Below the pieces are notes generated by a model. That model saw only the letters and a program-made list of their open reading frames with translations. It was not told the origin of the DNA and searched no databases. From positions 1-64,000 of the forward strand of contig NZ_NIZW01000004.1 of NCBI RefSeq assembly GCF_002727185.1: a DNA stretch of 64,000 bases, written 5' to 3'. A program made the translations under genes and the position numbers. Source of the DNA: Rhodopirellula bahusiensis (lineage in GTDB: Bacteria > Planctomycetota > Planctomycetia > Pirellulales > Pirellulaceae). Shown here in pieces: positions 2,858-57,873 of this stretch (positions are counted from its first letter, which is position 1; every line of letters starts with the position of its first letter).

Positions 2858-2871
2858 AAGTGCTTAAGCAC

Positions 2872-2992
2872 GTGAGCGGGAGTCTTTGGGCTTGATCACG
2901 TAGCGGCGTCTCTCCGAGACGCTGTCATTTGCGAGTCTCAGAGAGACTCAACTACGTGAGGTTCTACCCGATCAATTCTGCCTACCTGCTTA
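2872..2992 (+). repeat. Dispersed repeat copy A with REP-like twin hairpin
   Basis: About 120 bases that recur in inverted orientation at 27695-27815. The core, 2900-2955, starts with GTAG and ends with CTAC. It holds two hairpins: GCGTCTC/GAGACGC with loop TCC, and GAGTCTC/GAGACTC with loop AGA. The outer 8 bases TCACGTAG and CTACGTGA are perfect inverted repeats. It lies between convergent genes and may help stop transcription from both sides. Confidence 0.8.
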
Positions 2993-26444: not shown

Positions 26445-26515
26445 GTAGCTCGGTGTCCCCCACCGAGAATTCGTCGCCGAAATCATGATCGTCTCGGTGG
26501 AGACCACCGAGCTAC
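26445..26515. repeat. REP-like twin hairpin between convergent genes
   Basis: Starts with GTAG and ends with CTAC. The two hairpins are CTCGGTG/CACCGAG with loop TCCCC, and CTCGGTGG/CCACCGAG with loop AGA; the halves are inverted copies of each other. It begins six bases after the sulfatase stop and ends 13 bases before the stop of the convergent PH-domain gene, a good position for a two-way terminator. Confidence 0.8.
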
Positions 26516-27220: not shown

Positions 27221-27315
27221 AAGTCGTGCCGTTTTGAAGTGCTGTGCCAGTAACGCCTTGAGAACCCCGCCCGTTGCAAGAGGTCGTGCAGTTTTGAAGT
27301 GCCGTGCTCGCAAGG
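27221..27315 (+). repeat. 60-base dispersed repeat, two tandem copies
   Basis: Copy 1 (27221-27280) and a truncated copy 2 (27281-27315) share the core GTCGTGCAGTTTTGAAGTG with few changes. Copy 1 ends GAACCCCGCCCGTTGCAA. A third copy with both core and end lies at 55491-55550. Confidence 0.75.
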
Positions 27316-27342
27316 TTGAAATCACCCTCCTGAACGCAGTTG

Positions 27343-27674
27343 GGGAGGGTCGGAATGCGAGCGTTCAGCGAGAATTCCGGGGAGGGTAGTGCGCGCCTTT
27401 TCCTATGCTCGGCCCTCACCCTCGCGTACGCCTGAACGGCGTCACTCGACCTCTCCCCAAACTTCGTTTCGGGAGAGGTGCGCCGTGTAAAAATCTGCCG
27501 AAAAGCGGTATCAGAAAACTGCACGCCCTCGCAAACGGGAGGGGTCGGAAAGCGAGCGTTCAGCGAAATTTCCGGGGGAGGGCAATGCACGCCGCTTCCC
27601 ATGCTCGGCCCCCTCCCTCGCGTACGCCTGAACGGCGTCGCTCGACCTCCCCAAAACTTCGTTTCGGGAGAGGT
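27343..27674 (+). repeat. Tandem duplication, period 195 bases
   Basis: Units at 27343-27479 and 27537-27674 share long identical blocks, such as CTCGCGTACGCCTGAACGGC and ACTTCGTTTCGGGAGAGG, while the 57-base spacer is unique. Each unit contains a GCGTTCAG/CTGAACG inverted repeat. Confidence 0.75.
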
Positions 27675-27694: not shown

Positions 27695-27815
27695 TAAGCA
27701 GGTCGGCAGGAATGATTGGGTAGAACCTCACGTAGGCGAGTCTCTCTGAGACTCGCAAATAACAGCGTCTCGGAGAGACGCCGCTACGTGACCAAGGCCA
27801 GTGACTCCCGCTCAC
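27695..27815 (-). repeat. Dispersed repeat copy B with REP-like twin hairpin
   Basis: Inverted copy of the element at 2872-2992. The core, 27732-27787, runs GTAG, hairpin GCGAGTCTC/GAGACTCGC with loop TCT, hairpin GCGTCTC/GAGACGC with loop GGA, then CTAC. Compared with copy A one stem is longer and base changes are paired, which suggests selection for the fold. Confidence 0.8.
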
Positions 27816-27836
27816 AGCCTGAAACGGCTCAATCTC

Positions 27837-55550: not shown

Positions 55551-55570
55551 ACCGGCTTGTTGATCTTGTT

Positions 55571-55630
55571 GTAGGTTGGCCACTCTTGGCCGACATCGAC
55601 CACTCTGACGGGCAAGAGTGCCCATTCTAC
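55571..55630. repeat. REP-like twin hairpin, third stem type
   Basis: GTAG, hairpin GTTGGCCA/TGGCCGAC with loop CTCT, spacer, hairpin ACGGGCA/TGCCCAT with loop AGAG (one mismatch), then CTAC. Loops of the two hairpins are reverse complements. Confidence 0.75.
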
Positions 55631-55818: not shown

Positions 55819-57873
55819 TTACCCGAGCAACGACAACACGTTCTGTGGGTTTTGGTTGGCCAACGACAACACGTTCGTTCCCGATTGAACCAAGATCTGA
55901 GCCCGGGTCAGGTTCGCGGATTCCTGTGCGAAGTCGGCGTCACGAATCGAGCTTTCTGCTTCTTCCAAGTTGGCGAGCGTTTCGTTCAAGCTGACCAAGT
56001 TGCTTTCCAAACTCGTGGCTTGGAATGCACCGAGTCGACCGCGAAGGCTGGTGACTTTGTCGATCACTTCATCGATGACCGAGGCGGCACCGTTGACGTC
56101 GTTGGTCAAACTCTTGGCTTGACCGCTGCCCAATTCATAGAGACGACCATTCGCTCCACCGAGCTGACCGGTGCTCAAGCTACCGATGCCCAAACGAGCT
56201 TGCTGGTTGCTGGTGACGTCTGGCCCCAACTGGAACAACGCCCCGCCACCAGTGATCGAGAACGAGAAGTTCGCGGAACTCCCATCGTCAACGGTGACTT
56301 CCAAATCCAGCGACGATGTGTTGATCGACAACGTGTTGGCACGTCCGTTCGCTTCCACACCGTTGACCGTCGCGACGATGTCGACTCCGGTTGCGCGGGT
56401 TTCGGCGAGAGAAGATTCAAAGGTCCCGGATGTGCCTTCGTTGATCACATCGATGTTGATCAAGGCTTCCGAACCGTATGCGGTGGAAGTGAATTGCAAC
56501 TGGCCGGTTGTCGTGCTGGCCGAGATTCCCGTGCTGTCACTGACCAGGTTGATCGCAGCGGCAATTTGATCTTGCCCCGTGCCTCCAGCGAAGTTGAATG
56601 TCTCAGCACCCGAGGCACCATTCAACTGGAAGACCAAATCATCCAAGAGCACCTCGCCGCCGCTGTTTCCAGTCGTGAGCGGTGGCTCAGGAGCGACGAA
56701 TGCGTTCGCTCCTGAGTTATTCGTGCTGGTGAACAGGTTGTTGCCCTCATCGTCCTGGACCGCATCGATGGCCGTCGCGATGGCGGCGTAGTCTCGATTG
56801 GTTGGGGTCGCGGCCTGCGAGTTGAAAGTCACGGTCAGAATTTTCTGCTCGTCGTCGAACGAAGCTGTCGCGGCATCATCGGCCGCCGCATCGTTCAAGT
56901 CGACAAACTCGATCTGAACGTTGTTGAATTCCGAGCCTTCTGCGATCGCATCGATTTGGAACGCGACATCAGCAGTGACGTCGGCGGGCAATGCCTGAGT
57001 ACCAGCGACCGTTGTTCCGGAAGCCGAAAATCCATCTTCCGCGTTGATTAGGTTTTGGATTTCAACCGCACTTGCATCAGCGTCCACTTGGGGAGGGGTC
57101 GCGGAATCACCGGTGAAGTTGCCAGTGATGGTCAACACTCCGGTGGTGTCATCGTAAGACACGTCGCCTAGGTTGGAGTTGTTGATATCGTCGACGAAAG
57201 TAACGCTAGTGAACCCTTCCGGCCCAACGATATCGATTGATTCACCATTGATGTCCGCCGTCGTCGAGCTACCAAAGCTGACGGATGCCGCTGCAGCTGG
57301 GCTGAATCCGCCCGTGGTCACGGTCGCTTGAGTCGCCTCGGACTGAACCACGACCTCCACATCAATCTGACCGGTGATGCCCAAGTTGGCTTGGTCGATA
57401 TTGACGTCGCGAATCGAATCCACGCCGCCGGCGGTTGAAACAAAGTCCAACGACCCATCGAGCAACTTACGACCTTGGAAAGTCGTCGTTTGTGCAATCC
57501 GGTTGATGGCTTCCAATGATGAATCGATCTGCAATTGGTTTGCAGCGATCTCTTCAGTGGACAACGCCCCATTATTGGCCGCTTCGACGACCAGACCGCG
57601 GACGTCGTTGAGCAGGTTGCTGACCTGGCCCAGAGCACTGTCGGCGGTGCTGATGATTTGGCTGGCACGCCGCGTGTTGCTGATCGCTCGACCAAGGCTG
57701 GTCACTTCGCTTCGCAACGCTTCACTTGCGATCAAACCAGCTGGGTCATCCGCCCCGCTGTTGATTCGCAAACCCGTGCTCAATCGAGTCAATGCCGTTT
57801 GCAAATCTTCGTTGCTAGCCTGCAGTCGGTTTTGTGCAACGAGCGACGAAACGTTGGTATTGATTCTTGTCAT
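55819..57873 (-). CDS. fliC: Flagellin, large variable domain
   Basis: Structural subunit of the flagellar filament. The conserved D0/D1 ends are clear: N-terminal INTNVSSLVAQNRLQAS, LSTGLRINSGADDPAGLIASEALRSE, and C-terminal LEEAESSIRDADFAQESANLTRAQILVQSG. The central 420 residues are Asp/Ala/Thr-rich and poorly conserved (surface D2/D3), making the protein 684 residues against about 280-500 commonly. No other flagellar gene is in the window. Swarmer cells of planctomycetes are flagellated, which fits. I saw no sigma-28 promoter in the 266 bases upstream. Confidence 0.95.
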   Translation of the reverse strand: MTRINTNVSSLVAQNRLQASNEDLQTALTRLSTGLRINSGADDPAGLIASEALRSEVTSLGRAISNTRRASQIISTADSALGQVSNLLNDVRGLVVEAANNGALSTEEIAANQLQIDSSLEAINRIAQTTTFQGRKLLDGSLDFVSTAGGVDSIRDVNIDQANLGITGQIDVEVVVQSEATQATVTTGGFSPAAAASVSFGSSTTADINGESIDIVGPEGFTSVTFVDDINNSNLGDVSYDDTTGVLTITGNFTGDSATPPQVDADASAVEIQNLINAEDGFSASGTTVAGTQALPADVTADVAFQIDAIAEGSEFNNVQIEFVDLNDAAADDAATASFDDEQKILTVTFNSQAATPTNRDYAAIATAIDAVQDDEGNNLFTSTNNSGANAFVAPEPPLTTGNSGGEVLLDDLVFQLNGASGAETFNFAGGTGQDQIAAAINLVSDSTGISASTTTGQLQFTSTAYGSEALINIDVINEGTSGTFESSLAETRATGVDIVATVNGVEANGRANTLSINTSSLDLEVTVDDGSSANFSFSITGGGALFQLGPDVTSNQQARLGIGSLSTGQLGGANGRLYELGSGQAKSLTNDVNGAASVIDEVIDKVTSLRGRLGAFQATSLESNLVSLNETLANLEEAESSIRDADFAQESANLTRAQILVQSGTNVLSLANQNPQNVLSLLG

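Follow-up and report, generated by a model that had tools for sequence, protein, structure and literature searches.

Four twin-hairpin elements in a 64,000-base stretch of the Rhodopirellula bahusiensis genome (contig C4:1-64000, the whole of the DNA analyzed here and hereafter the window) can be interpreted, with a probability that we put at roughly 0.83, as GTAG-type REPINs of three families: family B, moved by a REP-associated tyrosine transposase (RAYT), family A, carried within a miniature transposon (MITE) that targets TA, and family C, a REPIN with outer arms, the hairpins additionally providing landing sites for other mobile elements. The assembly (G000) comprises 7.78 Mb in 63 contigs and was read in part.

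Four GTAG-footed doublets in the window

All four elements were found at exactly the coordinates originally predicted (Table 1), each with GTAG and CTAC feet and paired stem-loops, and the single plan ascribed to them, including the loops, is confirmed. When the window was scanned for doublets of 40-120 bases (GTAG-hairpin ... hairpin-CTAC), these four and no others were detected, and 20 first-order Markov sequences built from the window contained none. In a 1.164-Mb sample of the genome (400 kb of C1, 304 kb of C4 with the window, 60 kb of C2 and 400 kb of C6), nine doublets of 35-110 bases were detected, compared with 1, 0, 0, 0, 1, 0, 0, 0, 0 and 1 in 10 Markov sequences modeled on these stretches (mean 0.3). 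Without the window, the sample contains 5 doublets in 1.1 Mb; the window is denser in doublets than its surroundings, as would be expected of a stretch chosen for these elements. Among the doublets outside the window, C6:8748 belongs to family C, C1:109006 and C6:357425 look like the CGGAAGTCGCC type, and C1:293465 and C6:83063, which by eye fit no named family, may be chance occurrences. Among 600 perfect hairpins with 7-bp stems and loops of 3-5 bases in the same sample (N runs removed, the window's own elements counted), GTAG is the most over-represented foot, with 10 cases observed and 0.93 expected.

DNA folding yields z values of -3.15, -6.88, -5.33 and -5.14 for the four elements; for those at 26445 and 55571, the lowest-energy fold is a single long hairpin joining both ends, not two separate hairpins. 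GTAG is located at the foot of short, perfect or near-perfect hairpins, as is characteristic of GTAG REPs and REPINs, and the hairpins form inverted doublets (head-to-head dimers), as in REPINs. The four elements fall into three families, namely A (2900 and 27732), B (26445) and C (55571). An Rfam scan of the window detected nothing at gathering scores.

With respect to gene context, which was judged for the window copies only, three of these copies are located between long ORFs, and the 27732 element falls within two mechanical ORFs of unverified gene status. The elements at 2900 and 26445 are flanked by convergent ORFs and the one at 55571 follows a flagellin-like ORF, an arrangement that could be expected of immobile intrinsic terminators or mRNA-stabilizing hairpins of the neighboring genes. 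Nevertheless, the same sequences recur at 13 (A), at least 30 (B) and at least 28 (C) places in the genome, the elements end in CTAC without a T run, and family A has sharp edges in most copies as well as an empty site between relatives (see below), so that we consider this explanation highly improbable; as the sole explanation, terminators are ruled out by the dispersal and the edges.

Table 1. Features of the three REPIN families, the associated genes and the intron (positions refer to the window unless a contig or locus is given)
Feature	Location	Strand	Details
Family A REPIN core	2900..2955	+	pattern scan, fold
Parts of the 2900 core	GTAG 2900-2903; hairpin 2904-2924; hairpin 2933-2949; CTAC 2952-2955	+	loop TCC in the first hairpin, AGA in the second; spacer between them
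Family A 124-bp unit around the core	2867..2990	+	imperfect outer inverted repeats AGCACGTG...TACCTGCT
Second family A core	27732..27787	-	both hairpins intact
Outer arms, second family A unit	27697..27820	-	one end diverged; TA on a single side
Family B REP doublet	26445..26515	+	GTAG, hairpin 26449-26467, spacer, hairpin 26493-26511, CTAC
Surroundings of 26445	26438; 26529		stop of sulfatase-like ORF (by eye); end of convergent ORF
Family C REP doublet	55571..55630	+	GTAG, hairpin 55575-55594 (loop ACTC), hairpin 55608-55625, CTAC
Family C left outer arm	55553..55570	+	CGGCTTGTTGATCTTGTT; inverted partner degenerate here, clear in other copies
Neighbor of 55571	55819-57873	-	flagellin-like ORF (by eye); element downstream
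Candidate family B RAYT gene	C27:207-881	-	224 aa
Flanked NF047646 locus	C2:328176		GGCCAGGT type
Flanked NF047646 locus	C3:116344		CCGAC type
Flanked NF047646 locus	C27:240		family B
Flanked NF047646 locus	C7:215143		CGGAAGTCGCC type
Full group II intron copy	L167:9441-11404 (C1 of this genome)		~1.96 kb
Intron 5' exons, family B	C41, C27, C24
Intron 5' exons, family A	C39, C30
Intron 5' exons, CCGAC type	C50, C49, C15, C3, C1, C43

Family B and its candidate RAYT

Family B is a classical REP doublet (REPIN). Its sequence produced at least 47 matches with E <= 0.01 at the places counted above, and at least 74 matches at no fewer than 41 places when E values up to 10 were accepted (40 of the 58 first-look candidates were scored); many of these matches are single hairpins or doublets with different spacers. 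A candidate gene for the cognate RAYT was identified on C27, where B-type hairpins are present on both sides (137-195, with the foot cut by an intron at the contig end, and 977-1039), that is, the same REPs border the gene and occur elsewhere in the same genome, which is the arrangement of a REPtron. The only NCBIfam match of the encoded protein is the REP-associated tyrosine transposase family NF047646 (51.5 bits; cut-off 80), and its PF01797 score is 21.1 bits (cut-off 23). The protein sequence contains NHVH and YIDRNP, which we take to be the HUH motif and the catalytic tyrosine motif, respectively. The best three named matches, with 40-43% identity, come from Rubripirellula, Rhodopirellula and Aporhodopirellula, and five further matches come from metagenome-assembled genomes of Planctomycetota, Hydrogenedentota and Bacteroidales, in a match list that possibly omits this genome and its close relatives. 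B-type doublets also stand on either side of a gene in the congener G011 whose product is related, at 35% identity, to the family A RAYT discussed below.

Under the proposed mechanism, the RAYT, an HUH/Y1 single-strand nuclease, would recognize the GTAG foot together with the hairpin and spread family B. The gene and its flanking hairpins are observed; the cutting and copying step is extrapolated from other RAYT/REP pairs. The prediction that these elements are mobilized by Y1 transposases accordingly fares differently among the families: putative RAYT mobilization is best supported in family B, through the C27 locus; for family A, a partner was found only in a congener and the flanks point to a DDE enzyme; and for family C, the fetched Y1 loci contained no core.

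Tyrosine transposase genes in this genome and in relatives

The genome contains 10 matches to PF01797, nine of them over the cut-off (the C27 protein is the one below), and 12 matches to NF047646, one of which exceeds the cut-off. The original prediction was staked on a genome-wide excess over shuffled sequence and on the presence of a Y1 transposase; since the excess over Markov sequences and the Y1 genes are both there, neither of the contrary outcomes occurred. It further anticipated a transposase gene flanked by matching repeats, and such genes exist: the same GTAG hairpin (17 of 22 hairpin letters alike, within 900 bases) is present on both sides of four of the 12 NF047646 loci (Table 1), compared with 3 of 3000 random positions. 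At the remaining eight loci, no matching GTAG hairpins were found on both sides. In addition, the PF01797 match at C28:355 has GTAGCTCGG hairpins on both sides.

Eight related genomes yielded 113 NF047646 matches, from which 30 loci were fetched and three, cut by contig ends, were skipped; 10 of the other 27 are flanked by matching hairpins and 17 are not. Four of eight named loci are flanked. Several of the unflanked loci, although not all, are weak matches or encode longer proteins.

Two further observations concern these genes. Loci L161, L162 and L163, along with many loci of G002, G007 and G010, contain open frames of ~360-400 aa that weakly match the RAYT profile in its C-terminal part; within a genome, many of these proteins have an identical score, and the DNA of L161 and L163 is 87% alike, so they are possibly a separate group of Y1 transposases. 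At L002 and L003, two Y1 genes are located among direct and inverted repeats of ~50-210 bp that were not recognized as GTAG REPs; these arrangements are perhaps comparable to the TIR-bordered units of PMC3733652.

Family A: a REPIN core inside a 124-base unit

The second family A core (27732-27787) is an inverted copy of the first (2900-2955). The two had been predicted to differ by paired changes, and this part of the prediction was wrong: they differ at three positions, none of them compensatory, and two stem pairs kept in the 27732 copy are lost in the 2900 copy. The paired change (C-G to A-T) is found between the two hairpins within each A copy. The 13 genomic matches of this family have E <= 3.1e-11 and include two cut by an intron and two that are diverged (82 and 89% identity); the same search gave 10 more matches that are short or weak. 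In most of the 13 matches, the alignment reveals sharp edges located beyond the REP core, and the complete unit, AGCACGTG...GACCTGCT, spans 124 bases with imperfect inverted arms, its outer ends being of the AGCAGGTCGGCAGGA type.

The window unit at 2867..2990 is bordered by TA at 2865-2866 and 2991-2992. Among 23 distinct flank pairs from the fetched loci of this genome and its relatives (two of which represent one place in G000 and G006), TA is present on both sides in 16, on the left in 19 and on the right in 19, and CTA/TAG in 10; in seven pairs, TA is missing from one side or both. One site that is occupied in G006 is vacant in C6 of this genome, with a single CTAG, such that at this one site TA is single when empty and double around the element. 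Terminal inverted repeats with a TA target duplication, as in IS630-type MITEs, are thus observed in the long form of family A (for 16 of the 23 flank pairs). Units with A-like outer ends that lack the REP core were also identified (L220:142-266 in G009 and L024:18218-18480 in C28 of this genome). Ten of the 80 genomes, G000 included, contain a family A match (in most genomes, no more than 10 candidates were scored): full-length units in G000, G002, G004, G006 and G009, cores lacking complete arms in G005, G010, G019 and G021, and a unit with one arm missing in G007.

The congener G007 encodes a 223-aa RAYT-like protein (NF047646, 59.9 bits; cut-off 80; no Pfam family at E <= 0.001) with A-type GTAG hairpins on either side of its gene. 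A search of G000 with this protein retrieved four matches with 34-38% identity and no close relative, and a RAYT matching family A was found neither by this search nor among the fetched Y1 loci of this genome. Scanning of the fetched stretches for the ends of the A unit revealed no transposase for the outer repeats. A lone end at L331:9249, considered as a trace of an autonomous element with A arms, was rejected as it adjoins only an ordinary-looking long ORF; the remainder of the scan consisted of scattered weak matches.

Since the 124-base unit combines outer inverted repeats with TA flanks, these sequence features suggest that the long form of family A is an IS630-type MITE carrying a REPIN as cargo. 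Two other explanations bear on this family. According to the first, DDE transposons would account for A and C as ordinary MITEs, whose inner GTAG/CTAC twin hairpins have nothing to do with REPs. The outer inverted repeats of both families, the TA flanks of A and the lack of a matching RAYT for either family among the loci fetched from this genome and in the protein search are all compatible with that possibility, which we nonetheless regard as distinctly unlikely given, for family A, the core matches devoid of full arms in four genomes and the GTAG-footed hairpins on both sides of the RAYT-like gene in G007. Alternatively, RAYTs might copy all three families, the 124-base A unit included, with the arms being passive flanks and TA reflecting the target preference of the RAYT. 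RAYT-like loci are indeed numerous, and tyrosine transposase genes bordered by TIRs are described in PMC3733652; against this, the A arms are inverted repeats of each other and are also found at the edges of units that have no REP core, and the one empty site has a single TA where the filled site has two, so this scenario is possible, if unlikely.

The simplest reading of family A, then, is a RAYT-born REPIN that was later carried by an IS630-type MITE, with a candidate carrier of the DDE type. Family A would have originated as a REPIN of the same kind as B, a RAYT-like gene between A hairpins being present in G007, and would then have been trapped between the outer inverted repeats of a miniature transposon whose insertion target, TA (often within CTAG), is duplicated. 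A DDE-type carrier, rather than a RAYT, would be the likeliest cause of the 124-base copies in this genome.

Near the second A copy, the window contains a repeat of ~250 bp (27280-27530) that matches one on C11 (L244) at 96%; the C11 copy in turn has 85-94% matches to several other fetched stretches.

Family C and its ~190-bp insert

Family C gave at least 36 matches at E <= 0.01 at the places counted above and, up to E = 10, at least 41 matches at a minimum of 31 places (40 of 47 candidates scored). Its copies have common outer arms (CGGCTTGTTGATT.../...AATCAACAAGCCG), which are degenerate in some of them. Searches of the fetched Y1 loci for C cores, by blastn and with exact core patterns, were negative, and no REPtron of this family was found there. 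Family C would be a REPIN that has its own outer arms and is so far without a partner.

In eight of the 20 fetched C copies (L140 and L145-L151), an insertion of ~190 bases, which occurs in both orientations, occupies one site of the second hairpin and has duplicated 11-12 bases, present on both sides of it (GGCAAGAGTGCC; in L148, a common variant, GGCAGGAGTGCC, on both sides). The ends of this insert, a MITE, are TTTTT[GA]TACCCCACATCT. The same insert is also found at other small GGC-loop-GCC hairpins (L152, L181, L184 and L185), with the target on both sides in L152 and 10 of the 11 target letters on both sides in L181.

At the matching place in L139 and L227, a family C element is present in this genome and a family A element in G004, which suggests an insertion hot spot shared by the two families.

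A group II intron at the feet of the REPs

Ten contigs of this assembly (C41, C27, C24, C50, C49, C39, C30, C15, C3 and C43) end in the 5' end of the same group II intron, a full copy of which is present on C1. The intron RNA scores 55.1 bits with RF00029, over the gathering score, and 44.6 bits with group-II-D1D4-4, below the gathering score of 49. The 459-aa reverse transcriptase (RT) exceeds the TIGR04416 cut-off and contains the RVT_1 and GIIM domains; no endonuclease family was detected in it at E <= 0.001 (Pfam), and its best match among solved structures is the GsI-IIC RT. An RT without an endonuclease domain, a domain V, and insertion after a hairpin are thus combined here, as in group IIC introns.

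All 11 readable 5' ends are preceded by a REP hairpin followed by CTA, that is, the intron starts at the TAG foot, and the 5' exons belong to families A and B and to the CCGAC type (Table 1). At the 3' side, the exon starts with C in all 11 ends that reach the last base region, as CTAC requires (a 12th match, 32 bases on C24, was excluded), and on C40 the 3' exon continues into a family A arm. Both flanks are on one contig only for C1, and therefore the restored CTAC foot is inferred for the other copies. Among introns of relatives with 64-95% RT identity, four have a readable 5' exon: hairpin-CTA is found in G003 and G020, a hairpin with a different foot in G019, and no hairpin in G010. The distant introns L199 and L202 (36-39%) have 5' ends as well and stand outside the hairpin count, and the pattern detected no 5' end in the remaining fetched relative intron loci. 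With 11 of 11 here and two of four in the relatives, the REP habit is strong in this genome and weaker elsewhere.

Under the proposed scheme, the hairpins would serve other elements as landing sites, the TAG foot being used by the group II intron and the inside of a C hairpin by the ~190-bp MITE. A broader interpretation, to which we give even odds, is that several kinds of element in this lineage share REP hairpins as a docking surface: a IIC-like intron would have specialized on the GTAG/CTAC foot of RAYT-made hairpins whatever the stem, a MITE enters the hairpin of family C, and family A switched from a RAYT to a DDE vehicle.

Implications and comparison with known systems

If the docking-surface interpretation is correct, REPs would be recognized by foot and fold by a ribozyme in the same manner as by a RAYT, and if the intron indeed seeks REPs, REP abundance would shape its spread. 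The analysis adds a candidate REPtron with its REPs for a planctomycete and suggests two extensions, namely that REPINs may hitchhike in miniature transposons of the DDE type, and that an intron, itself a retroelement, occupies REP hairpins in this genome wherever its insertion site can be read. The natural set of hairpins with varied stems and one foot could be useful for dissecting the target choice of IIC-like introns. The repeats themselves belong to an established class; the REPIN carried in a MITE and the intron that seeks REPs look novel. No paper on a REP-specialized intron or on a REPIN within a TA-duplicating MITE was found in the open-license literature searched, and prior publication elsewhere is possible.

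REPINs as reportedly described by Bertels and Rainey in 2011 consist of two inverted REPs that, with a short spacer, form one mobile unit; family A differs from these in its extra outer inverted repeat and its TA flanks. IS630 elements duplicate TA and prefer CTAG. ISY100 is reported to have a strong TA preference. The TA target is common to IS630/Tc1/mariner MITEs and family A; the cargo of family A is a REPIN, and its carrier transposase is only putative.

Another point of comparison is R. baltica, a Rhodopirellula. According to PMC3733652, R. baltica has differing REP families as well as an abundance of tyrosine transposase genes flanked by repeats, and GTAG REPs are known in planctomycetes. 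The present elements resemble the GTAG REPs, RAYTs and REPtrons of Nunvar 2010 (PMC2817692) and Di Nocera 2013 (PMC3733652) in the GTAG foot, the 7-9 bp stem and the short loop, and the head-to-head dimers and the Y1/HUH gene flanked on each side by one type of hairpin are as in the REPtrons outlined there. In contrast to the published GTAG REP families, with which they were compared by description, families A and C sit in longer units. Cleavage and strand transfer on single-stranded REP by a RAYT were assayed at the bench in PMC8266576.

For P. putida KT2440, PMC1525189 places two of nine group II introns in REPs, and group IIC introns target terminator motifs and attC according to PMC4424553. 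The intron described here resembles group IIC in that its RT is closest to GsI-IIC, lacks an endonuclease domain and belongs to an element inserted right after a hairpin; in contrast to group IIC introns on terminators or attC, the hairpins that it follows are REPs at all of the readable 5' ends.
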